A stretch of 64,000 bases of DNA, taken from positions 18,531,302 through 18,595,301 of the forward strand of contig OZ022594.1 in NCBI GenBank assembly GCA_963669155.1. The letters run 5' to 3'. Positions within the stretch are counted from its first letter, which is position 1. Every line of letters starts with the position of its first letter. Positions 18,901-57,160 of this stretch are shown in pieces. The translations under genes were made by a program, and so were the position numbers. Origin of the DNA: Arbacia lixula. Its lineage: Eukaryota; Echinodermata; Echinoidea; Arbacioida; Arbaciidae. The notes under the pieces are model-generated. The model saw nothing but the letters and a program-made list of their open reading frames with translations. It had not been told where the DNA came from and did no database searches.

Positions 18901-21364
18901 ACCTGAAAAATAGAGCAATCACAGCCATTCGCTTCCATGAAGGTCGCATGTCCTTCTGTCACTATGATCACAGATGACATCATGCAGGATATCGTGGAGA
19001 ACAACAGATAGAGGCCAATCTGTTAAAAGATGAGTAAAAACAATTAATAATAACAATAATTAGCAATTCTTCTATGGCGCAAAACGCATAGTGATTAAAC
19101 ATGTCCCTGTGTGCTCTAAAGAAAGAAGTACAAGACACAAGATATAGGATATATATATATATATAAGCTACATGTACGCCTACCAGTATTCTCTTCATCC
19201 ATTTCTTTCACAAAATATATATATAAGATATATATAACAATGTAAGAAATTATACATATACAACATATAAAACACAAAGATATATATAATATATGAATAT
19301 ATGAATATAATATATAATGAAGATATATATGAACAGATTGTACATTAGATGTGAAATAAGTGCATCTTTAAATTGATCTTAAATCATAAGATAGAACAGA
19401 TAATACATTAGATGTTAAATAAGTGCGTCTTTAAATTGATCTTAAATTGAATCAATGTTTTTTCAAGTTGTCTTGGAGATTCTTCCACAAGGTTGAGTCA
19501 ATGAAGTGAACCTGCGTACACCATATGACCAGATCAGAAGTGATGGAATAACAAACATTTTTTTTTGTTATCAGATCAAAGATTTCTAAGTAAAGCCATG
19601 TGTAAAAGTGATTTTATTGTTAGGCAAGTAATAGTTACATTTCATTTGACATTGAAAATCATCCAACACATGAAAGTGATATTTTTCCATATTTTGTTAC
19701 AGCTAGGTTTCACATGAATATGTATACAACATTAAGACAGTTCATTAGATATCTCTCTATATTGAGGTTTTCATTTTGTACACAAAGAAATATAATTCAA
19801 ACTAAAATAAAGTGAACACCATTCATCAACTTTACATGCATAATACTCAATTTAGAAGAGCTTTTTCTTGCTTCTTTTTTCTTTCACATCCAAGTCATAC
19901 ACATACGAAACAGCTCAAAGGAATTGGCATAGGGAAAGGGTAAGGGAAGAAAGGGATCGACCCGCAGTTTTAACATTCGGTATATTTTGTCCAGTTCAGC
20001 ATGAAACATGATGCTTTTTAGGCTAAAACATCGTGTTTCATGCTGAACTGGACAAAATATACCGCTATTTAAAACTGCGGCTCCTTTCCTTTCTTCCCCG
20101 TTCCCCTACCCTTTCCCTATGCCAATTCCTTTGAGCTGTTGTGTATATACCTTCCTTCATACTCCTCTGTGATACTGAATTTGGTAGGTTTGTATTTGAA
20201 AATGTGAAACTTATTTCAACACTGAACTGCTGATCAACATATCAAATATTACAGTTAATCATATAAAGGAGCTGCATGGGTTTCTTACCATGAAAGTCTG
20301 TTCCATCATTGTAGAAACACCAAACACCCCGCAAAACAGGAAAAGCTGCCGAAATACATGTATAAAGAAAAAGAATATATTCAATCACAATAAAGTTGAA
20401 ATCCTGCTATAGGCGATCATATAGTCACATGTACATGTGTTGAGAAAGTCGCTCAAGCGAGTCTGTGCCACGGGACCAATTAGTCTTAGCATTTGGAGCA
20501 AGAGCGATGGAGATCCCCCCCCTCCCCCGCCCCCATTCCAACTGTGTTGAAGCTTGCCAATATCAAGGGAAAACAACTATTTCTAACCTTTTCTTAATTA
20601 CTGACCCTGCCTACATGTAGGCTTGTTTTTTCCGCTTAGATAGTGAGCAGAGTGACTCCCATACAAAACACGCTATGAATAAACTTAAAATTTTAGATCG
20701 CAATTAAGATCGCAACTAAGCCACATGCACCTACCCCTTTGGTTACTGCAGTTCCATGGCAGATTTTGAAATCCTAAATGGACCAGGGAGATGTTTCACC
20801 AAGCTGTTCGTAAGTTACGAACGACTTTACGAGCGACTGGTGATCCCTTGTGCTAAATGTGATACCACGCTTTGTTCATTGAGAATCTGATTTAGCACAA
20901 GAAGGGATCACCAGTCGCTCGTAAAGTCGTTCGTAACTTACAAACAGCTTGGTGAAACACCCGCCTGGGTTCACGAAGCCAGAAAATCTAACCGTGAGCA
21001 ATGGGTTAAAAAATCTCACCAGTCCAGCCCAGAGGGGAAGGTCCATGAAGTAGTGGTGGGAGTGCAGGACCATCGTCAGCAGACCCATCACAGCCGTCAC
21101 TGACCCGCACAGGATCTGCAGCAGTCCTGTCAAACGTCCCACCCCAGGGTTGTAGCTACCGCGGCGCCCGCCGGTTGGGGAGGGAATGATGCTGATGAGG
21201 GGCTGGTAGCTGCCTGATGATGTCGCAAGGCCAAGGCTGCTACCCCCATCCACCCCGCTCCCTCCGCCTCCTCCTCTTCCTCGAGCTCTTCCAGCGTTGT
21301 ACTCACTGTTGTCTCCTACATCTCCTCCCACTTCAACGTCATCACCGCTAGGGTTGGATGGCAT
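15929..21364 (-). CDS. MS4A/CD20-like four-transmembrane protein, allele A (5 coding exons)
   Basis: Coding exons in order are 21364-21020, 20345-20289, 19019-18903, 17303-17169 and 16153-15929 (stop). All junctions have AG/GT borders and phase 0, giving about 292 residues. The first coding exon begins at 21406 behind a good acceptor (TTCTTCTCAG), so the ATG at 21364 has a 42-nt untranslated lead and an upstream non-coding exon is expected. A Gly-rich cytoplasmic start (residues 1-70) is followed by TM1 (LTGLLQILCGSVTAVMGLL), TM2 spanning the exon 1/2 junction (WAGL/LFLFCGVFGV), TM3 (GLYLLFSTISCMMSSVIIV), a loop with CDC, and TM4 (NVTAALVSCMELLVAAVAV). Then come a CCGCC cluster that could be palmitoylated and a Pro-rich tail (SPPPSYPVLPPPP). 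Order, spacing and the PLWAGL loop fit the CD20-like family, which comprises membrane proteins linked to calcium entry and receptor signalling in vertebrates. The function here is unknown. Introns hold many MITEs. Confidence 0.75.
16165..16670 (+). repeat. 93-bp purine-rich minisatellite in the last MS4A-like intron (copy A)
   Basis: About 3.3 units of a 93-bp repeat (GAAGAAAGATGAAAGAAGG then GAGAAGAGAGGGAGAGATGGG), followed by degenerate GA-rich sequence. In the gene's sense it is an approximately 500-nt CT-rich tract ending just before the acceptor of the last coding exon (16153). The 31-residue repeat frame on the plus strand is a by-product of a 93-bp period. Confidence 0.9.
16860..17065 (-). 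mobile_element. SINE-like dispersed repeat, reverse orientation (copy A)
   Basis: In reverse it ends in ATGAATAAAGTTTATCTGC after GGGGCTACCCTGCATG and CAGGGCCCCCTAGC. The same block is at about 41298-41480. It is called a repeat because I recognise its general form from echinoderm DNA. No pol III promoter is visible. Confidence 0.35.
17304..18344. other. MS4A-like intron between coding exons 3 and 4 (copy A), left part
   Basis: No exon-like sequence. A short palindrome (CATGGACCCTAGTAGGGTCC at about 17563-17582) is imperfectly kept in copy B. Copy B carries its HINE-like insertion in this intron. Confidence 0.6.
18345..18824. mobile_element. Foldback MITE, GGGATAGTTCACCC family (copy A, intronic)
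   Basis: The left arm starts TTTAAAGGGATAGTTAACCC and the right arm ends GGGTGAACTATCCCTTTAAA. Inner blocks are mirrored: TTGGTTTCAATAAAAG, GAAACACATTGAAGGTTC and GTGCTCTCCCATATGTTGTG. No coding capacity. Confidence 0.8.
19150..19335. repeat. TA-rich microsatellite (copy A)
   Basis: ATATATA runs and TATATAATATATGAATATA repeats. Copy B (about 45045-45122) is much shorter. Confidence 0.85.
19336..20280. other. MS4A-like intron between coding exons 2 and 3 (copy A)
   Basis: AT-rich. A near-duplicate of 70 bp (AGATAGAACAGATAATACAT-type, with TAAATTGATCTTAAAT) is at about 19325-19450. It also holds the foldback MITE 19911-20138. No exon-like sequence. Confidence 0.55.
19911..20138. mobile_element. 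Foldback MITE, CAGCTCAAAG family (copy A, intronic)
   Basis: The ends CAGCTCAAAGGAATTGGCAT and ATGCCAATTCCTTTGAGCTG are perfect inverted repeats. The inner TTTTGTCCAGTTCAGCATGA is also mirrored. Confidence 0.85.
20791..20959. mobile_element. Foldback MITE beside the MS4A-like exon (copy A)
   Basis: TGTTTCACCAAGCTGTTCGT, AGTTACGAACGACTTTACGA and CTGGTGATCCCTTGTGCTAA are mirrored in the right arm. Both copies have it, about 60 bp from the donor of the first coding exon, so an intron transcript would contain a stable stem there. Confidence 0.85.
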
Positions 21365-21892
21365 CTTTGAACCTGCGTGATCAAGCTTGCGATGGATGTA
21401 TGCGTTCTGAGAAGAAACCAGAAAATTATATTGGGGAACTATCTGCATGAAGTGTACACAGCAGATGAACTACACATGAAACTAGAAATAAACCGTCTGT
21501 CACAGTTGTGTTCTGTTAACTATAGGCTGGTATCCGTATGCCTGCGCTATAAGCTCTTCCGCAGGAAACAAACAGTACATGTAAGGTCACAGGATACAAT
21601 GGCACTGTTGTATACATCAAGTATCTGCTTGGGTCTCCCTGGAGGCATGTACTATTAGCTCTCAGCGGAAGGTCACAAGCTACAATGGAACATACCAGTA
21701 CTATTCATGTCAACTAACTGTTACAGGTCACAACTGGCTAATCAATAATGTGAACAATGCAGGCTAAGAGAACGTGGCCAAGCACAAATCCAATTGACAG
21801 TTGATAAAGGAGTCTCAAAATGACTGTATAGTGTTCGACTTCCAGACTTATTGGCCCACATTCACAAAGGAGTTTAGATCTAGGCCGAGGTT

Positions 21893-46600: not shown

Positions 46601-47072
46601 CACAAGAAGGGATCACCAGTCACTCGTAAAGTCGTTCGTAACTTACGAACAGCTTGGTGAAACACCCGCCTGGGTTCACGAAGCCAGAAAATCTAACCGC
46701 TAGCAACGGGTTAAAAATTCTCACCAGTCCAGCCCAGAGCGGGAGGTCCATGAAGTAGTGGTGGGAGTGCAGGACCATCGTCAGCAGACCCATCACAGCC
46801 GTCACTGACCCACACAGGATCTGCAGCAGTCCTGTCAGACGGCCCACCCCAGGGTTGTAGCTACCGCGGCGGCCGCGGCCGGTAGGGGAGGGAATGATGC
46901 CGATGAGGGGCTGGTAGCTGCCTGATGATGTCGCGAGGCCGAGGCTGCTACCCCCATCCACCCCGCTCCCTCCGCCTCCTCCTCTTCCCCTAGCTCTTCC
47001 AGCGTTGTAGTCACTGGTGTCTGCTACATCTCCTCCCACTTCAACATCATCACCGCTAGGGTTGGATGGCAT
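40657..47072 (-). CDS. MS4A/CD20-like four-transmembrane protein, allele B (5 coding exons)
   Basis: Coding exons are 47072-46725, 46056-46000, 44915-44799, 41740-41606 and 40884-40657 (stop), all phase 0 with AG/GT borders, about 294 residues. Against allele A there are two one-residue length changes (an extra Arg in TGRGRRG, an extra Pro in EKIPPLES). Substitutions are few and lie mainly in the Gly-rich start, the TM3-TM4 loop (Gly to Ser) and the tail. The four membrane segments are essentially unchanged, which suggests purifying selection on the core. The exon 4/5 intron contains the HINE-like element 42591-44077. The LTR retroelement 49381-57156 lies upstream on the opposite strand. Confidence 0.75.
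40893..41115 (+). repeat. Purine-rich minisatellite, contracted (copy B)
   Basis: Counterpart of 16165-16670 with only about one unit left, so the alleles differ by roughly 280 bp. It still places a CT-rich tract before the last exon's acceptor. Confidence 0.85.
42591..44077. mobile_element. HINE/Helentron-like element with a tandem-repeat core (copy B location)
   Basis: Same ends and core as 12318-13609, but seven full monomers and a longer (ACGG)n block (about 43977-44030). It interrupts the intron between MS4A-like exons 4 and 5. The matching copy A position (about 18175) is empty. Flanks are A-rich on both sides, so the exact target duplication is unclear. Confidence 0.65.
42844..43972 (+). 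repeat. 156-bp tandem array with DR1 motifs (copy B)
   Basis: Monomers start at about 42844, 43002, 43158, 43314, 43471, 43632, 43790 and 43947 (last partial). The DR1 motif is preserved in all seven full monomers although other positions vary. Confidence 0.9.
44241..44717. mobile_element. Foldback MITE, GGGATAGTTCACCC family (copy B, intronic)
   Basis: Counterpart of 18345-18824, with more divergence in the termini. Confidence 0.75.
45625..45849. mobile_element. Foldback MITE, CAGCTCAAAG family (copy B, intronic)
   Basis: Counterpart of 19911-20138, with more arm mismatches. Confidence 0.8.
46498..46664. mobile_element. Foldback MITE beside the MS4A-like exon (copy B)
   Basis: Counterpart of 20791-20959. 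Arms are at least as well matched as in copy A. Confidence 0.85.
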
Positions 47073-47114
47073 CTTTGAACCTGCGTGATCAAGCTTGCGA
47101 TGGATGTATGCGTT

Positions 47115-49380
47115 CTGAGAAGAAACCAGAAAATTATATTGGGGAACTATCTGCAAGAAGTGTACAAAGCAGATGAACTGAACATGAAACTAAAAATAAA
47201 CCGCCTGTCGCAGTTATGTTCTGTTAACTATAGGCTAGTATCCGTATGCCTGCGCTATAAGCTCTTCCGCAGGAAACAAACAGTACATGTAAGGTCACAG
47301 GACACAATGGCACTGTTGTATACATCAAGTATCTGCTCGGGTCTCCCTGGAGGCCTGTACTATTAGCTCTCTCAGCGGAAACCAAAAGGATACAAAGGGA
47401 TGGAAGGTCACAAGCTACTATGGCACATACCAGTACTATTCATGTCAACTAAGTGTTTAAGGTCACAACTGGCTAATCAATAATGTGAACAATGCAGGCT
47501 AAGAGAACGTGGCCAAGCACAAATCCAATTGACAGTTGATAAAGGAGTCTAAAAATGACTGTATAGTGTTCGGCTTCCAGACTTATTGGCCCACATTCAC
47601 GAAGGAATTTCAGATTTAGACTGAGGTTTAAGCAAATTCAGTGGCATACAAGCAGATTTAGCGCATGCACTTCAAAAAGGTCATATAATAAATGCCTGCA
47701 TTTGCATAGGGTGCTATATTCACACTAGCTGCTATATGGTTTCCCGGTAGACCATATCTAGACCATGGTTCATTCCAATAAACCATCGTCTACCCTATAG
47801 TAGCTGGCGTGAATTCAGCACCCTATGGGCATCAAGCTTGTTCATTTTTGGGCCTTATTTGCATGTAGGCAACAAAACTTGCTTTATTACACTGTGAACT
47901 AAATCTAAAACTATTTTGTGAATTTTGGCCATTAGAATAAAACTAGTAAATCAGCTGTAGCCTTATACATATTGTATAAGGCAGTACAGTATAGGTCAAC
48001 GACAAGTAATAGTTGTTTCAAAGAATCTGGCCTAGCATTTCATGTGTGCTACAATCATTCAAGTTAACATTGTATGACCTTGCTTTCCCTTTTTCCTCTC
48101 TCATTAATTGATTCATTATCAGTTTTTAAAAAAAAAAAATCATCAATTAATTTATTGGTACACTATTACTACATTATTGATCATCTGATTTGTTTTTTAT
48201 TGTTTTAATTTTCATTTGTTCACTTATTCATTGAGTATCAATTTATTCTAATTTATCAGTGATTATTATCATTTTTTCCTTTCCTTTCTTGTTGTGAGGG
48301 GGTAGGGGGGGGGGGGTGGATGAGGGGGACCCAGAGAAGCGAGTTAGGAGTATTCAAATTCTCTTCTCCTGTCAGATCATGTAAAATTGATATATTCAGA
48401 ACATATGCAACTATGATACAAAGCAATGACGATAGAGAGTGCTGGCACATATTAGAGAGTATTTACAGCAGTTTTCTGCATAAACTATTTTGCTTGCTTA
48501 AGTGTGCAAGTCCTGCAGTGCAAAGCCAGCCTGGATATTGTAGACATAAAAAAAACCCTGGTCATGCGGTCAAAACTGATCAATCAACGTGTATATGCAC
48601 TACAGCTTCAGAAGCAAATATCAAAATAGAACAGGGTAGTCAAACTTATCATAAACATGCAACCCATGGAAAATTAGACCAATTAGTTGGATTCACAACA
48701 CGGTCTGTTGCAGATCTTGTCTTATGGGAAATGGTTGACCTCAAAATAATGAGGCTGTACTGTAAATTGCGCCTACATATACTCTACCTGCAAAACAACT
48801 TATAGTACACAATATATGGCGCATATTTCCTTGTGACATTTTGACCATTTTTTAAAATTCTTCCTATCGCTGCTATTTTTAAAATCCGCACACCATGTCG
48901 GTAGCATATTTTGATGCTTAGGCACTGATCTGTATGCCTGTATACAGCTCAGTGCTGCTAGGCTGTGATCTTGACCTCAAAGTTGGAAATAGCCTGTCCG
49001 CTGCACTGGAATAGGTGGCTTGTCTGTATTGTGAATTGGTCTGTATCTATATATAGGGCCGACAGCTAGGGCGTGGTCTTTACGTACAAACTGCATGCCC
49101 TAAAAGGACTGCAGTCAAGTGAGGTTTTATACATGTACGTGCATGCAGTACAGATTCAAGTACTACAAGTTCTCTTTTAATATTACAAAAATTAACTTAC
49201 AAAATGTAAGAATTCACAGTAGGGATGGAGACATACTTGACTTTCGGCACGGTATAAAACTTGATATTAAAAAGTTTGATGTAAGTAATAAGGAAATTGC
49301 AAATACTGGCTCAATTACACATGACAACTGTCATCTTCAGTTTTCTTCAAAGAAATATTTTCTCAAACATTACTGATAAC
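47115..49380. other. 5' region of the MS4A-like gene (copy B), left part
   Basis: Counterpart of 21407-25890 without the copy A insertions 21893-23008 and 24274-25461. The G run at about 48305-48317 is shorter than in copy A. No exon recognised. Confidence 0.55.
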
Positions 49381-49607
49381 TGTAGTAGTTAGCGACCCCA
49401 CCCCTCTACAAGCCCCGCCGATAGAGGGCAGCAGGGCTGCATATATAAGCCCTGCGCCGGGGAGAGGTCGACAGACCGAATCCTGACAGAGACTGAGACA
49501 GAACTGATAGTACAAGACAGCTACAAACAAAGGTTGGTTTGTCGTTTTGTATTCGTGGTCTGTTTGGTCTCTTGGTCTGACCAAGCGTTTCAGAGTGAAC
49601 CGCTTCA
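49381..49607 (+). repeat. 5' LTR
   Basis: Starts TGTAGTAGTTAGCGACC and ends GTGAACCGCTTCA (TG...CA). A TATA box (TATATAA, 49442-49448) precedes a likely transcription start. Confidence 0.93.
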
Positions 49608-51096
49608 TTGGCGCTTGCGAGCAGAAGCTGTTCGCTGCTTTTGCGGCCTTTTTATTTAATCGATTTGTGGTGAGACTTTGCAGGTTCGCCGTGAGCTAGG
49701 CCTCTCATTGCGCATTAGATGCGTTCCCTGATGCGTGGGGGGAAAGTGCTCACGGCAGCCGCGTAGTCAAGCCACGTTTTTAGTTTCGGATCACATTAGT
49801 GTTTTGTTCGGTAGGGTTGCCTAGTCAGCCTTACCAATCGTAGTCCTAGTTTATTGCCATCTTTATAATTTTTTGTAGTGCGTGGTGTGTGTGTCCTGAG
49901 TCAGGTTCTTTTTAGTAGCCAGATTCGGGGCAATTTTTAGCTCGTTTTCGTACGGCATTTTTTCGTTTTCGCGTGGGGATATAGTTCCGGCCGCGGGCTG
50001 GAAATTTCCACGAGGGAGCGGGGATCGTGCGTAAATCGTTGCACCTACGATTGGGTGATTGTGTGTTCGAGCGTGTGTGGCTGATCTGTCGGCTGCGCAC
50101 TAGTTTAGTCTCGCGTCCGCGGGCTTTTACATCACTCGGTGGTGGGGCCTGCGCAGTGCGCGGCGCATAGTTGTTTTTCGTGTCGGGGACGGGCGGAGGG
50201 ATACTTATTATCCTCCCGCAAAAGTTTCCGGCGCCATCTTTGGACCGTGTCGATCGTGGACCAAACGTTGCACGCGTCTTCGGGACAGCGGTGATCTATC
50301 ATCTACCCGAGATTGACGGAGCGGTACGGAAAAGTGAGTTTTTGTGCTTTGATCTCCGTTTTATTTTGGATTTATAGATCTGAATCCGTGAGTTGTATAT
50401 TTGTGTTCCACTATTGGAACGGATTTTTAGCCAGTTTCGTATTTTCATCTTATATTTAAGTAAACATTTTGTGTGTGTGTGTGAGTGCATATTTGGGAGT
50501 GTCACGTGTGGACCCACCCGTTCGTAGTAGCGGGGAGTCCGTTCAAAAAAAAAAAAAAAAAAAATAAAATAAAAAAAAAAAAAAAATTGTGCGGGTGTGA
50601 GGTGATTGTTGAGGTTGATTGTTTTTAGAGTTTGTTGAACTTCACAAATTGTGAGGTGCGTTTGTTTTTGTATGGCCGGTGAGGGGGAGGATTTTGAAAT
50701 CCAAATCCAAGGCAAACTTAATTTTTTATTATTTGTCATTGAGGCGTACAAGGCAGATATCATTACACTGCCGGAGCTTGTACAGCTGTTGGTCGATATT
50801 GTTTTCCAAGAGGGAATGCAATACGAATTTTAAGTTTTACCATTTTTGTACACCCTATGGTTGGCCATTTGCGCCGACTTGTACAATTTTTGTAAATTTT
50901 ATAGTTGGCCAGTCGCGCCAAAATTTATAATTTTGGTAAAGTCTATAGGTGGCCAGCCGCGCGAAGTTTTATAACTTTCGTGCGTTATATAGGTGGCCAG
51001 TTACTCCAATACTTATAAATTTTGTTGTGTATAGTCTAGGTTGGTTCCAGACAAGCTTTGTCCAGAACCAGTAGGCCTAGAGCGTAAACTCGAACG
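49608..51096 (+). other. Retroelement leader with small open frame and 44-bp repeats
   Basis: The 1.5 kb leader holds the primer-site-like sequence, a donor-like AAAGTGAGTTT (GT at 50334), an A-rich run (about 50545-50586) and a 53-residue open frame from ATG 50672 to 50833. It also has about four 44-bp repeats (50832-51010) with TATAGGTGGCCAG cores before the gag ATG. Confidence 0.7.
50672..50833 (+). CDS. Small leader open reading frame, function unknown
   Basis: Fifty-three residues, acidic start (MAGEGEDFEIQIQGK) then a helical-looking, Leu/Ile/Val-rich part (ITLPELVQLLVDIV). It is not a low-complexity by-product. It could be a small protein or an upstream frame tuning gag translation. 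No family recognised. Confidence 0.35.
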   Translation: MAGEGEDFEIQIQGKLNFLLFVIEAYKADIITLPELVQLLVDIVFQEGMQYEF

Positions 51097-52770
51097 ATGG
51101 ATAGGGACACTAAAATCCCTATCAATCTGTGCTCCTTTGAGGAGCTTCATGAGGTGCCAGGGCTATCCCCAGCCCAGGCAGGGATCCTATTGGGTCTTAG
51201 AATTGAGCATGGAAACGTGACTCCCGAGCTCTTTGAGAAGTCTCCCGGACTTGTAGAGTCCAGGGGGCTACTCGACAAGTTTGATTACACACCCAGGAGT
51301 ACGTCGGGGCTCCAGGGTCAGAGTGGGGAAGGCCAAGGCGTTTTTTCCACTCCGATGGGATACCGGGTCCCAAACACTAGCACTCCTAGGGGGGCCCAAG
51401 CCCCGCTGGCGGAAGGGTGGGCGCCGCAGGGCGCCTGCACGTACCCGTATGATGTATACCCGCCTCCGTCGACACTGGAGACTACACGAAGGTCTCCGGG
51501 TCGCACACCAGCGCCCTCGCATGCACAACCTCGAGATGCGTATGGGTTGAGAGAGTCCTCTCGGATGGGGGACGCCCTCGCCGATAGGCAGGGGCGTCGT
51601 GGCCCCACCGTCCGGGATTACTCGCTCAGCTCCTGTGCAGCCAGCGCGAATAGAGGAAGCGTAAGTGGAGGGCGGGGCCCACAGGCCTCGCTACCACCAC
51701 CTGATTTCGGGTCAAGAGATATTCGGAATTATCGCGAAAGTCAACCTGGACTCTTCTCTAGTTCAATCCCGATAGGGCAGGGGGGTGGCAGGTCTATGTA
51801 CCAGCCTCTCCCCAAGGCCATAGCCTTTGACGGACAGGGGAGCTGGAGAACGTTCCAACGAAAATTCACGGTCTACGCCGACCAACAAAGGTGGACCTGG
51901 GCTGAACGGGTCTATCAGTTGCATTGGGGCATGACTGGGAAGGCTGGAGACTACCTCAGCCTGGTTCTTGAACAAGAGCCGGACTTGGGGTATCTCGATA
52001 TCCTTGAACGAATGGAGCAGCGTTTTGGCGAGGGTGGATTACCTGAATCCGCCCAGCTGGAATTTGCTTCAGCCAAACAGGGGCAAGACGAGTCCCTGCC
52101 GGAATGGGCTGACCGGATACTACGGTTGGCACTGAGAGCGTTTCCGGGGGTGGAAGGGCACTACCCACAGCAGCAGGCAGTCCTCCGCCTGTGCCAAGGG
52201 TGTGCCAATAGGGAGGCAGGGTGTCACGCACTCACCCAGCATCCCGCCACCATTAGGGAGGCTCTCCAGTCAATAGAGTGGCACCAGCATGTCCATCGGG
52301 CCATGTATGGTCGTGCCCGCGCTATCAAGCCAGTCGCGATGACTACCGTTGAGGAGGGAGAGGTCCGTAAGGTCGATCTCTCTCCCCCCGCGTCCACAAG
52401 ATCTACTGAAGAGGGAAGATATGCTGCCCCGGAGCGTCGCTTAATCGCGTCGGAGCGCCGATCTTCCGAAACGGAGCGCAAACTAAGCGAACTGGAGCGA
52501 AGGACTGGGGAGCGCTTAGACCAATTAGAGCGCGATATGAAAAAAGTTTTGGAGCTGCTACAGCCCAAGTCTGAAGCTTCCAGGGAACGGCCAAAGTCTC
52601 CTGGAGGTGACAGATGCTACGGCTGTGGGGGGTATGGGCACTTCCGCCGACAATGCCCAAACCCCAAGGAAAACAGAGCGAAGGTACAGGTTTCCTTTGT
52701 TGAAGGTTTGGAGGAGGAAAACTGCAGCGGGTCGGAGGAAGAGGCCAACCTCCGACCCACATCGCCATAG
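51097..52770 (+). CDS. Gag polyprotein of the LTR retroelement
   Basis: 557 residues from ATG 51097. Residues about 7-45 (NLCSFEELHEVPGLSPAQAG...) match the pattern of a ComEA-type helix-hairpin-helix motif, unusual at the start of a gag. Residues about 60-235 are Pro/Gly/Ser-rich and probably disordered. Residues about 244-360 (FDGQGSWRTFQRKF..., then LPEWADRILRLALRAFP) fit the retrotransposon gag/capsid fold. A charged coiled-coil-like stretch lies at about 445-490, and a CCHC knuckle (CX2CX4HX4C) at residues 507-520. It would form the particle and bind the element's RNA. The protease frame overlaps its end in the -1 relation, as is usual in Ty3/gypsy elements. Confidence 0.85.
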   Translation: MDRDTKIPINLCSFEELHEVPGLSPAQAGILLGLRIEHGNVTPELFEKSPGLVESRGLLDKFDYTPRSTSGLQGQSGEGQGVFSTPMGYRVPNTSTPRGAQAPLAEGWAPQGACTYPYDVYPPPSTLETTRRSPGRTPAPSHAQPRDAYGLRESSRMGDALADRQGRRGPTVRDYSLSSCAASANRGSVSGGRGPQASLPPPDFGSRDIRNYRESQPGLFSSSIPIGQGGGRSMYQPLPKAIAFDGQGSWRTFQRKFTVYADQQRWTWAERVYQLHWGMTGKAGDYLSLVLEQEPDLGYLDILERMEQRFGEGGLPESAQLEFASAKQGQDESLPEWADRILRLALRAFPGVEGHYPQQQAVLRLCQGCANREAGCHALTQHPATIREALQSIEWHQHVHRAMYGRARAIKPVAMTTVEEGEVRKVDLSPPASTRSTEEGRYAAPERRLIASERRSSETERKLSELERRTGERLDQLERDMKKVLELLQPKSEASRERPKSPGGDRCYGCGGYGHFRRQCPNPKENRAKVQVSFVEGLEEENCSGSEEEANLRPTSP

Positions 52771-52811
52771 GGCCACAGCTAGACAGGAACGGTTGCACGT
52801 TCCAGGATAGC

Positions 52812-53750
52812 GTGGATGGGCCGCCCATAGGCCCAACCAAACCAGAGGAAGAACCTGGGGTGCATTCATGCATAATTACTCTAGGGGATCCAGTGGTTAA
52901 AAGTCTAGCACAGTATGTAGAGGAGATCACGGCTCCTGAAGCTGATATCGGCACCTCGGACATCCGGTCATTTGACCGGATAGGGGAGGGTCCAGAAATT
53001 ATTCCAGACCACCCCCCGGGGGCCGAAAAGGCTGAAGAAGTGGTGGTATGTAGGTTGGAGTCCGGCTCCACCCTCAATGCTTCCGTGATAGTCGGGGGCC
53101 AGCCAGTTAGCGCAGTGGTAGATACGGCCGCGGAGGTATCACTTATCTCGGAGGAAATGTTTCAACTACTGTGTCCACGCCCGCCCAAGCTGCGAAACGT
53201 TATCCTACACGCGGCGGGTAAGGATATGAGGATGAAAGGGACAGTAGTCGGACCTATCTCTGTGAAGTTGGGAAACCAAACATATCTCGAGGAGATTTAT
53301 GTGGCACCGATAGCGGGCCGCATGCTCCTGGGATTGGACTTCCTGAGTAAACACAAGGTAACCATTCATCTTCAAGAGCCACACTTACGAATAGGAGAAG
53401 AGACGGTTCCTCTTTGGTTTGAGCACGATCCAGGGCGTCGTGTCGCTCGGGTTCATGCACGCAAGCGTGTGGTGGTACCACCGAACGCAATCAAGAGGAT
53501 CACAGGAATTATTGACCAGCGGTTAGGAACAGGTATTTTCGAACCGCAGGTGGATCTTCCAGTCATGATTCCCAGTTCCATCCACGGGGCAGGGGAAACG
53601 GTAGAACTCTATGCCATCAATCCCACGGATAGACACCAGGAAATCACTTGTTCAGGTGTCTTGGGGGAGGCTGGACAACTGCAAGACATGGAAATCCAGG
53701 AACTTAGCTTGGGGGATGCAAGGGTTTCCCAAATTAAAACGGGGGGCTAA
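52812..53750 (+). CDS. Aspartic protease region of the LTR retroelement
   Basis: A retropepsin-like domain with catalytic motif VVDTAAEVSLISEEMF (Asp near residue 104) and the later LLGLDFLSKH, the usual second conserved block. The frame is open upstream of the first listed codon and overlaps the gag end, so the true start is probably by frameshift, not a separate initiation. After the protease core about 140 residues follow with no recognised domain. The frame ends before the third gene with no polymerase. Confidence 0.8.
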   Translation: MDGPPIGPTKPEEEPGVHSCIITLGDPVVKSLAQYVEEITAPEADIGTSDIRSFDRIGEGPEIIPDHPPGAEKAEEVVVCRLESGSTLNASVIVGGQPVSAVVDTAAEVSLISEEMFQLLCPRPPKLRNVILHAAGKDMRMKGTVVGPISVKLGNQTYLEEIYVAPIAGRMLLGLDFLSKHKVTIHLQEPHLRIGEETVPLWFEHDPGRRVARVHARKRVVVPPNAIKRITGIIDQRLGTGIFEPQVDLPVMIPSSIHGAGETVELYAINPTDRHQEITCSGVLGEAGQLQDMEIQELSLGDARVSQIKTGG

Positions 53751-53859
53751 CTCCTAGTCTCCACATAGACAAATATTGCCCTCTCTGTGTAGGTAGGGAG
53801 AAGTAAGGGCAGAGAATGTGGAATGATTGGGTCTTCTTGGTTAGATACTAATTATGTTT

Positions 53860-53889
53860 TCTTCTTTTCTCTTGTTCTCCTTGCTACAG
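53860..53889 (+). promoter_or_regulatory. Splice-acceptor-like tract before the third retroelement gene
   Basis: A long pyrimidine run ending TTGCTACAG with the ATG immediately after. With the donor-like site in the leader (GT at 50334), it could yield a spliced mRNA for the third gene, as retroviruses do for env. Inferred from sequence only. Confidence 0.55.
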
Positions 53890-56402
53890 ATGACTGAGTT
53901 GAGGGCAGAGGACCTTCCTTTGCCCTCAGATAGTGATGAGGACTGGCTACTCGGCGGTGAGGAGCCGGGGGCCGTGGAGGGTGGGATGGAGCCGGCGGAG
54001 CTGCGTCCCACGGAAGTGGAGGAGGGTGGGGTCGACCGGCCTGACTCTACACTCCCCACTCGAAATCAGGTAATGGGTTTGGGAGGGGCCCCTATGGCTC
54101 AACCCAATCCCGCAGAAGACCTGGGAGGAGCTCAAAGTGCGCCTTCCGAGGTGGTGGTGGAGGAAGGGAACCTTGCGGTTGCCTCACCAGCCCCCGAAGG
54201 GGAAACCTGGGCGGGACAGTTGGTGAGGTGGCTAGTGGGGGGACCTTCTCTCCCCTACCCTAGTTTTGTGGTCCGCTTGGCCCCGTCTGAGCTGCCCTGG
54301 GACTTCGTCCTGGCGCACTTGGACATGGTGTACACGCGGGCCGCAGAGTCATGTGATGCGGGCTGGGTCAGTTGCCTGCATGAGTACCTCAGGGGACGCC
54401 TGTCTCCAGAGGACTATGTCAACAGGTACCCTTTGCTGGGGTCAGAGGAGGGCGCCGAGGAGGGGGCTGAGGGATTAAGATTCTTCGACCCCCCCACTCC
54501 TTGGTGGGAGCCGGGCATGGAGAAAAGTCAGCGTTTTCACCGCAGCCTGGCCCACCTTTCGCCCTTCTCGTGGCATACTCCAGTGGGGTCCTCAGGATTT
54601 GGGGCAAGGCCTCAACCAGAGGTTCAGGGCAATTTGTGCCTCGAACCTGCACCAGCTGACTTACATCCAGCTGGGGTTGGGCCAACCTCAAAGGGTCACT
54701 CCGAGGCTCCCATGGAGGCAGAGGAGGCTATGGACACGGGGGATTCGTCTCCTGTGCCTAGCTCCCCTCCTTCGAGCACCTGGGTGACACCGCCTGAGGA
54801 GCTGACTCGTTCTCAGCTTCCCCAGGCCGAAGTGGGAGCCACTCGGGCAGGTGTCACATCCCGCCCGGGTAAGCGACCAGGGGGAGGGTCCGTAGATGGG
54901 CCTTCCCGCAAACGCAAGGCGAGGGGCATGTGTCCCCTTTGCCAAGCTAGGCCGGCGGGAAAGTTGAGGACGCATGTCTATCGACACATGCCGCCAGCGT
55001 TGCGCTTGTGCCAGGGCAAGGATGCCCCTGAGAAATTGCCGCTTCTCGGGGTCAAAGGATGCCTCAGGTTCATGTCGCAAGCGCTGACTGGGTCAACTGA
55101 ACTGGAGAGCCTCATGCGGTTTGTGGACAGTGGGGCACCTGAGGACTGGGATTGGTCTATCCCGGACGTCATGGAGGAGGATATGATTCGCCTCCATGAA
55201 GGTCTGCGGATTCCGGTCCCTCCTCAACTGTCCGTCCGGCCCATGAGCTCTTTCGTGGTGCTGCTGCACTGGAGGGTGTTAGCCTGGCTCGTGCCTCAAC
55301 TGAGCACTGAGCAGAGGGACAGGCTGCACTTTCTGGGAGGGTCTCGCCCAAGGCAGACCACAGCAACCACCACAGGAGTTGAGTCAACTCAGGCAGGTGG
55401 CGACACGCCATCCGCACCGAGCGTGGCACCATCATCTGATGGAGGTGGGAATACTGTTCCCGCCGCTGCTGCTTCGGCTGCGGGGGCGGCCCCGCCTCCT
55501 GCGGCGGCTGGAGCTTCTGCTCCGGTTGCAGGGTCCTCCACAAAGGGTTCGGGTGTATCGTATGCCCGGGCCACATCTAAGCCACCTGTCCCCTTAGCTT
55601 TCGATAGCCATTTCCATTTGGATAGGCTAGAGGCGAAGACAGGAAAGGCGGGGCTTGGGTGTGTGGAGACTCTGGCCGGCAGGGAACCGCGGGTTCCGGT
55701 GCGACTCTGCGGGGGCGTGGTCAATTACTGCGACCCCAAAGGACACCGGAACATCAAGTTCCCTGCGGACCGGAAGTGGAAGGTGTCGGTGGGGGTGCAC
55801 CCCAAGCATGCCCCCACCTTCGATGAAGTGGATCTGGACGTTATGGGCAAGCTTGCCTGTGACGCCAGAGTTTGTGCCATAGGGAAGTGGGGCTCGACTA
55901 CTCCGTTCCCCCTAAGGCCTGGCCGAGGCAGCTGAGCGTCTACAAGACGATTTTTGAGAAGCTTGGTGCGTCCGGCCAGGTCTTGGTCCTTCATCTCCGG
56001 GGTGAGCAGGGAGCCCCGGATTCTGACAAGCCCTCTCGCGTCTGCAGGGAGGCAACTGTCGGAAGGGTCAATAAGCACCAGCGGATTCACATCCACTCGT
56101 GCACATTGAGCCCTTCTGAGGCCAAGGCGTGGGGGAAAGCATTCCCAAACGCCTACTTCGGCTTTAATGCCTTGGTCCGGTCGTTTTCGAAGGCCCAGTT
56201 GTCCGCCCTGCGGGCGATCCCTCCGAGTCGGGTTCTGTTAGAGACCGACTCCCCTCATCTGCCCTTAGGTGGGGGCATCACTCACATGACCCCTGCTTAT
56301 ATAGGGGAGGTGGGACTGCTTGTCGCCAAGGCACGGCAAGAACAGTTCCACCCCTTCATGGAGAGAGTTAGGGCAAATGCCCTGACGCTCTATGGAGCCT
56401 AA
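53890..56402 (+). pseudogene. Third coding region: C2H2 zinc finger plus TatD (TATDN2-like) nuclease region
   Basis: It opens at ATG 53890, directly after TTCTCCTTGCTACAG, a strong splice-acceptor-like sequence. The first 300 or so residues are acidic and Pro-rich. A C2H2 finger (CPLCQARPAGKLRTHVYRH, CX2CX10HX3H) lies at about residues 348-366. The C-terminal region carries TatD landmarks: SHFHLD (metal-binding HxH), GGVVNYCDP, VGVHP, GLDYS, IHIHSCT, YFGFNALV and LLETDSPHL. The GGVVNYCDP block is closest to metazoan TATDN2. TatD enzymes are metal-dependent nucleases. It sits where retroviruses carry env, and no membrane segment is seen. It looks broken in about one place. Whether that reflects decay or a sequencing error cannot be told. 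Confidence 0.75.
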
Positions 56403-56915
56403 AAGCAGGGGCATAGGGTACGGTGGGAAATTGTTTTCCGCCGGCCACCGAGAAGTGGGTATCATGTAAAGATCCTACTTCTTTTTCTGTCCATCTGAAG
56501 GTGGAATCCATCAGGGATTCCACTTTCTTAAATTCTATCGGTAGGTGGGATTCATTTAGGATTCTATCTTTCCAAATTCCTCATTTCCATTGGTAGGAGG
56601 AAACCATTTGGGATTCCACCTTTTCGGTTCCAATGGTATGTAACGGGTCTCAAAATGGCCTGCTCCGTTTAATGGCGACGCTGGCGCCTCCTGGCCTACG
56701 CCTGAGTTACCTAGGTGGGCTTCCATTATGTGGATCCCACCGATAGTACCCGAGTAATGAACATCTCGCACTGGTAAGATGGCGTCCTAGCCCGGGCAGG
56801 ATAAGCGGATAGCTCACCGCCATGGGAGCAAGGAGGATTTTGGGCAAAAGGGGTAGGGGGGACCCATAGGGAAAATACTTTTTTTTTTTTCTTCTTATTG
56901 GGGACCTTGTTTTTT
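56403..56915 (+). other. Retroelement 3' untranslated region
   Basis: It contains about three imperfect 45-50 bp units (about 56498-56640) with GGTGGAATCCA, GGGATTCCAC and TCCATTGGT-type cores, then a T run before the polypurine tract. No coding signal. Confidence 0.6.
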
Positions 56916-56929
56916 AAAACGGGGGGGAG

Positions 56930-57156
56930 TGTAGTAGTTAGCGACCCCACCCCTCTACAAGCCCCGCCGATAGAGGGCAGCAGGGCTGCATATATAAGCC
57001 CTGCGCCGGGGAGAGGTCGACAGACCGAATCCTGACAGAGACTGAGACAGAACTGATAGTACAAGACAGCTACAAACAAAGGTTGGTTTGTCGTTTTGTA
57101 TTCGTGGTCTGTTTGGTCTCTTGGTCTGACCAAGCGTTTCAGAGTGAACCGCTTCA
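56930..57156 (+). repeat. 3' LTR
   Basis: Same 227 bp as the 5' LTR with no difference seen by eye. Preceded by AAAACGGGGGGGAG, a typical polypurine tract. Confidence 0.93.
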
Positions 57157-57160
57157 TAAC

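Follow-up and report, generated by a model that had tools for sequence, protein, structure and literature searches.

The window analysed here, a stretch of 64,000 nucleotides of the sea urchin Arbacia lixula (contig OZ022594.1, positions 18,531,302 to 18,595,301), contains at 49381-57156 a long terminal repeat (LTR) retroelement of 7,776 bp, which carries, in addition to gag and protease genes, a third open reading frame (ORF3) for a protein joining a C2H2-type zinc finger to a TatD nuclease domain. The GC content of the element is 0.547 versus 0.392 elsewhere in the window. Its LTRs (49381..49607 and 56930..57156) are 227 bp each, begin with TG, end with CA and show no mismatch to each other; the four bases TAAC are repeated on both flanks as a target site duplication (49377..49380 and 57157..57160), a polypurine tract, AAAACGGGGGGGAG (56916..56929), abuts the 3' LTR, and a primer-binding-site-like sequence beginning with TGGCGC (49609..49628) stands after the 5' LTR. 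All features between the duplications are on the plus strand. The element is a young, recently inserted copy, and the identical repeats and the tract confirmed what a sequence-only reading of the same stretch had claimed in this respect.

The gag gene and the retropepsin named in that reading fared differently: the protease frame (52704..53747), which overlaps gag in the -1 frame, had a retropepsin match above the Pfam cut-off (PF13975, E 1.1e-9), and gag (51097..52770) is an open frame of 557 amino acids with a helix-hairpin-helix-like N-terminus and a CCHC knuckle plain by eye, but its Pfam matches were all below the threshold (zinc knuckle 0.0058, PNMA 0.0064, HHH_3 0.0076). No slippery heptamer of the XXXYYYZ type was present in the gag/protease overlap. 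The ORF3 gene begins at 53890 and its first part, recognized as an open frame and by alignment with urchin proteins, extends to the end of the first frame at 55935. The C2H2 pattern is at 54931..54990, and the TatD domain (55597..56399) is split over two frames by a frameshift, its N-terminal piece alone matching PF01026 below the cut-off (E 0.025) and its C-terminal piece above it (7.3e-16); the motifs HFHLD, VGVHP, EVGLDY, LHLRG, HIHSC and ETDSP are distributed across the two frames. The finger-TatD gene recognized by the sequence-only reading is therefore real, but its frame is broken in this copy.

An LTR search of the host genome (607 Mb, 590 contigs) returned at least 32 matches, and 17 regions were fetched. 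By tblastn ORF3/TatD was found in nine of them (L095, L096, L097, L098, L100, L104, L105, L108 and L110), in L104 and L110, diverged copies with gag about 71-72% identical, as fragments only. No ORF3/TatD was found by tblastn in the other eight: L099 and L107 are the 5' parts of elements continuing in L100 and L108, L101, L102 and L103 are solo LTRs, and L106, L109 and L111 are considered below. The LTR pairs of the six full-length members have no mismatches, and their target site duplications are TAAC, GTAG, TTAT, ATAA, ATGT and ATAT; since these six duplications of 4 bp are all different, the insertions were independent. Two solo LTRs are flanked by CTTA and TTGC.

In the C12 copy of this first family (L099 and L100) the protease is followed by reverse transcriptase (RT), RNase H, integrase and a PHD finger, and then by an open TatD frame. 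In L105 and L107/L108, where the LTR match covers the first 98 bases only, pol likewise stands before remnants of TatD, and L097 runs from protease through RT and RNase H into the start of integrase, after which a deletion leads into the TatD gene. The order in the window element, L095 and L096 is gag-protease-TatD, without pol, and L098 has a separate deletion ending in the protease. Compared with L100, 3,154 bp are missing from the window element, namely the RT-RNase H-integrase-PHD part between protease and TatD, and what is left of pol is the tail of the protease, up to 53747, and 23 residues of the end of the PHD finger at the junction (53744..53803). When the window element was compared with the pol proteins of its related copies, neither RT nor integrase was present in it, so the polymerase that the sequence-only reading had reported missing is indeed lacking in this copy. 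The junction lies in a G run present on both sides, and it is the same in the window element, L095 and L096, together with the same small gaps nearby. The deletion as an intron scar was rejected, the junction being without GT-AG. It was one deletion event, later copied to at least three sites, and perhaps an RT template jump was its cause.

Two side features of the fuller copies can be mentioned. The PHD finger is located at the C-terminus of the integrase (L100:3424-6018, L108:7788-8189), and the leader of the C12 copy contains about 4.3 kb of extra sequence (L099:1604-5878).

The TatD domain is far from single-copy in this genome, where a TatD protein search gave 55 matches and a PF01026 search 46. 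Seven places, nearly identical to one another and with 40% identity to the query, have open TatD frames of 579-583 codons (420 in one) and represent a second family. Its C17 copy, read in three pieces, has LTRs of 354 and 353 bp (99.7% identical), a gag with helix-hairpin-helix (1.3e-6) and CCHC (7.9e-7) matches both past the cut-offs, a protease (8.8e-9), a pol frame that stays open for at least 1,115 codons and encodes RT, RNase H and integrase, in which Pfam gave no PHD match, and a finger-TatD frame (2.5e-35) starting about 80 nt past pol; the target duplication is TATT only if the LTR begins one base later than the BLAST alignment. In the 0.9 kb upstream of TatD at the six other places the integrase end was present in all six (97-100% identity), split across frames in L120 and L123, where pol is broken. 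At a third locus, L126, pol (69% identity) precedes a TatD frame of 577 codons. Over the aligned parts the first and second families are 57% identical in pol, 34% in gag and 32% in ORF3. No env profile was found in the frames of the window and the second family searched with Pfam, profiles being the sole approach. Judged by sequence, TatD is a standing component, with several copies, at least three families in the genome and relatives in other animals, and the stable TatD-bearing LTR family of the sequence-only reading is thereby upheld.

The helix-hairpin-helix at the start of Gag (HHH_3 1.3e-6 in L114:1779-4217, and 0.0076, below the cut-off, at 51097-52770 of the window) is not known as a usual feature of Gag. 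Further TatD places were also recognized in the genome. L112:1467-5615 is an open frame of 1,383 codons in which a TatD domain is combined with two finger/helical units and internal tandem repeats; the 6.8 kb fetched had no listed pol frame beside it, and it is possibly a solitary or co-opted gene. L119 (C2:5464700-5468800) contains three TatD-domain units in tandem with a spacing of about 1.4 kb. The highest-scoring PF01026 match in the genome, at 257 bits, spans the whole domain without a change of frame; it is on a small contig, C506:12125-12868, and is perhaps a bacterial contaminant.

The ORF3 frame is open over 852 codons in L095, L096, L098 and L100, and these open copies exceed the PF01026 cut-off. 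The metal-ligand positions HxH, E, H, H and D are conserved in 53-54 of 54 aligned relatives, and the finger pattern is present in 40 of them; some relatives have altered residues, and the HP histidine is missing in two Lytechinus proteins. L095 and L096 are identical throughout ORF3. Between L095 and L098 there are 18 synonymous and 22 nonsynonymous changes (ratio of nonsynonymous to synonymous rates, dN/dS, 0.41), and between L098 and L100 there are 10 and 11 (0.37); the window copy was left out of this comparison, since its ratio is inflated by misaligned codons past the frameshift. Values of about 0.4, on these small numbers, suggest constraint on ORF3. Besides the finger, structure prediction indicated two further helical parts, and when the N-terminal and finger part was folded alone, the predicted model matched nothing convincingly in the PDB (best E 4.2), which is not a proof of a new fold.

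The ATG of the TatD gene at 53890 directly follows a putative splice acceptor (53842..53889) made up of a branch-point-like TACTAAT, a polypyrimidine stretch and CTACAG. It is the only acceptor-like site of the element under the rule used; in Markov simulations any such site occurred in 45 of 300 sequences, and one before an ATG in 1 of 300. The polypyrimidine tract and CAG|ATG are retained in all five copies having the stretch, in two of which the branch-point-like word is TACCAAT. A putative donor, AAA|GTGAGT (50331..50339), is located in the leader, where it is the only site scoring 8/9 under the rule used between the LTR and the TatD ATG, and it is present in the six copies checked. Furthermore, the N-terminus of the related protein P0007, MFSFSFCLALQ-MM, could be a translated acceptor-like site, as read from the protein only. 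TatD might accordingly be expressed from spliced RNA in the manner of env.

Relatives were looked for by two protein searches. Residues 340-690 of the first ORF3 frame as query gave five proteins, from Lytechinus pictus, L. variegatus and Strongylocentrotus, and the TatD part of P0001 gave 54, among them proteins of further urchins, of the hemichordate Ptychodera, of bivalves and of many other sources; all 54 match PF01026. P0023 (Mytilus edulis), alone among the 54, has a retropepsin too, 36% identical to that of the window over 217 residues (E 1e-37); P0023 also shares 40% identity over 90 residues with the RNase H-integrase part of L100 (E 4e-16), and Pfam called no integrase there. A PHD finger occurs in many of the 120 pol relatives listed of 4,610. 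The pol protein P0066 and the finger-TatD protein P0012 are from the same source, with a longest contig of 11,370 for both, which suggests that they share one contig.

The tree was unrooted, was built without TATDN1 and TATDN3, and comprised 57 element-type rows (51 proteins and 6 from the own genome), 20 prokaryotic or viral-contig rows and 3 TATDN2 rows. Among the 54 proteins of the second search two are labelled TATDN2 and P0052 was excluded (less than 200 residues after the cut); the other 51 were taken as element-type, a class assignment under which most of them are not shown to sit in elements. Scans with the TatD alignment provided 6 viral-contig loci and the best 80 of 474 prokaryote matches (24-35% identity), used as comparison rows only; 78 passed the motif filter, and the first 25 or the first 20 were used per tree. 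P0053, P0056 and L116 are proteins that we take to be TATDN2. Each of the three groups formed one side of a branch (100/99, 100/99 and 100/98), the element-type and TATDN2 rows being on opposite sides of one (100/99). The host TATDN2-like gene (L116) grouped with P0056 and P0053, and the window family with Lytechinus (100/99). Since the element-type TatDs stand apart from the host gene, a recent capture from it is unlikely, and the captured host nuclease supposed by the sequence-only reading has loose support only. Five proteins named as TatD hydrolases of Sedimenticola or Thiodiazotropha (P0008, P0011, P0017, P0040 and P0049) fall among the animal element-type TatDs; these bin proteins may be animal DNA, with host DNA contaminating the bins.

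Taking the structural evidence together, it is highly probable that the window element belongs to a Ty3/Gypsy-type LTR family as a non-autonomous copy that has lost pol, and that the fuller members of this family have the order LTR-gag-protease-RT-RNase H-integrase, with a PHD finger in some, then zinc finger/TatD and LTR. The slot of TatD is downstream of pol, at the position of env, and pol was lost from a subset which still moved. RT and integrase being missing in the pol-less copies, relatives must have supplied both, and these copies would have been mobilised by them. Several observations weigh against this interpretation. The TatD gene of the window copy itself is broken; pol is interrupted by a stop in the C12 copy (L100) and interrupted or truncated in L097, L105 and L108, so no working helper was seen in the first family; L106, L109 and L111 have LTR matches without any gag, protease or ORF3 match; and PF01026 was found in the same protein as pol in none of the 120 pol relatives listed, thus the pol-TatD linkage is not shown in most other species. 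The sequence-only reading had placed TatD where the polymerase should be, and a replacement of polymerase by TatD as a family trait would be in line with three independently inserted copies (window, L095 and L096) having gag, protease and TatD without pol. This is practically untenable and was refuted by pol standing before TatD in three first-family copies (L100, L105 and L108) as well as in both further families, and the pol-less copies have a single deletion junction in common.

Concerning its function, the TatD domain, presumably a metal-dependent nuclease, would be carried to nucleic acid by the finger and might trim or clear nucleic-acid ends or RNA:DNA hybrids in reverse transcription and integration. 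As its role we tentatively favour such processing, of cDNA ends or of RNA:DNA hybrids, in the course of replication. TATDN1 and TATDN3 have apurinic/apyrimidinic (AP) endonuclease and 3' exonuclease activities, the former being shared by three E. coli TatDs (PMC10085689), and TATDN2 is cited as an R-loop RNase (PMC12709183). The AP-endonuclease activities (PMC10085689) would also agree with a TatD directed against host defence or damage rather than serving normal replication, by cutting defence RNAs or processing abasic or deaminated cDNA sites, and the coding of TatD by an ORF of its own, preceded by an acceptor-like site, fits an accessory factor; this is a serious possibility, short of an even chance, but nothing in the data separates a host-defence role from cDNA processing. 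Regarded as single roles, antagonism of host defence is doubtful, repair of damaged (abasic or deaminated) cDNA is rather unlikely, and a non-catalytic TatD, or one with no role, is unlikely. That the protein is mainly nucleic-acid-binding or structural, its nuclease activity being dispensable, might be argued from the finger, the two predicted helical parts and the altered residues of some relatives (the HP histidine in two Lytechinus proteins), but the retention of the ligands in 53-54 of 54 makes it improbable. The broken TatD frame of the window and the presence of TATDN2-like genes in the host (L116) could even point to passive cargo, acquired once from the host by one element. This is very improbable: at least three families in the genome and relatives in other animals refute a one-copy event, the active site is kept in 53-54 of 54, four first-family copies are open with dN/dS about 0.4, and the tree separates the element TatDs from the host gene.

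The window element shares with Ty3/Gypsy (Metaviridae) elements the TG...CA LTRs, the short duplication of 4 bp, the polypurine tract and the primer site, and the gag and the protease-RT-RNase H-integrase order are present in L100, L108 and L113/L114, whereas the window copy is without RT, RNase H and integrase. The extra finger/TatD gene and, in the first family, the PHD finger at the integrase end are differences; the Gypsy assignment is from gene order and ends. Orchid Ty3/Gypsy elements reportedly carry an m6A demethylase domain; they have likewise gained an extra enzyme domain, but the enzyme is a different one and their hosts are plants. TATDN2 and other TatD nucleases have the same fold, catalytic residues and class II HxH motif, but TATDN2 is separate in the tree, and most element-type proteins (40 of 54) have a C2H2 finger. 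A closer likeness is offered by Juno and Vesta of bdelloid rotifers, LTR elements with gag and pol, in which an enzymatic ORF3 after pol encodes a DEDDy exonuclease or a GDSL esterase, the slot including a 3' exonuclease, and is described as expressed via spliced messages (PMC5408684). The DEDDy fold is not that of TatD, which is unmentioned in the accessible text of that source (PMC5408684), and TatD was the only domain called by Pfam in our ORF3. Troyka elements occur in sea urchins as well, where non-autonomous copies of them are numerous, but their 3-bp duplications and CG...CG ends (PMC12440569) differ from the 4-bp duplications and TG...CA ends found here, which place the window element outside Troyka. 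Extra enzymes in the ORF3 slot are already known; TatD in this slot is new as far as searched, no TatD-bearing LTR element having been found in a literature search to which subscription journals and Repbase were external.

LTR elements are usually described as gag plus pol, with env as the best-known extra. We put forward, with due reserve, that the elements described here belong to an old unnamed Gypsy-type branch of echinoderms, hemichordates and molluscs, in which a finger/TatD protein from one ancestral gene occupies the env slot, is made from its own spliced message, and aids spread, whether it processes cDNA ends and hybrids or reverses damage that the host inflicts on cDNA. If this is true, then, together with the rotifer DEDDy elements, nucleases would have been repeatedly recruited as accessory factors of retroelements, and a second env-slot nuclease with an active site conserved between animal phyla would indicate an overlooked step of replication or host conflict. 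The finger-TatD protein is a testable enzyme. The results also suggest that retroelement genes are present among the animal gene models annotated merely as TatD or uncharacterized, and among the 'TatD hydrolases' of symbiont bins.

Elsewhere in the window, on the minus strand, two open frames at 20879-21469 and 46623-47189 have weak CD20-like matches (0.0022 and 0.00086, both below the cut-off).

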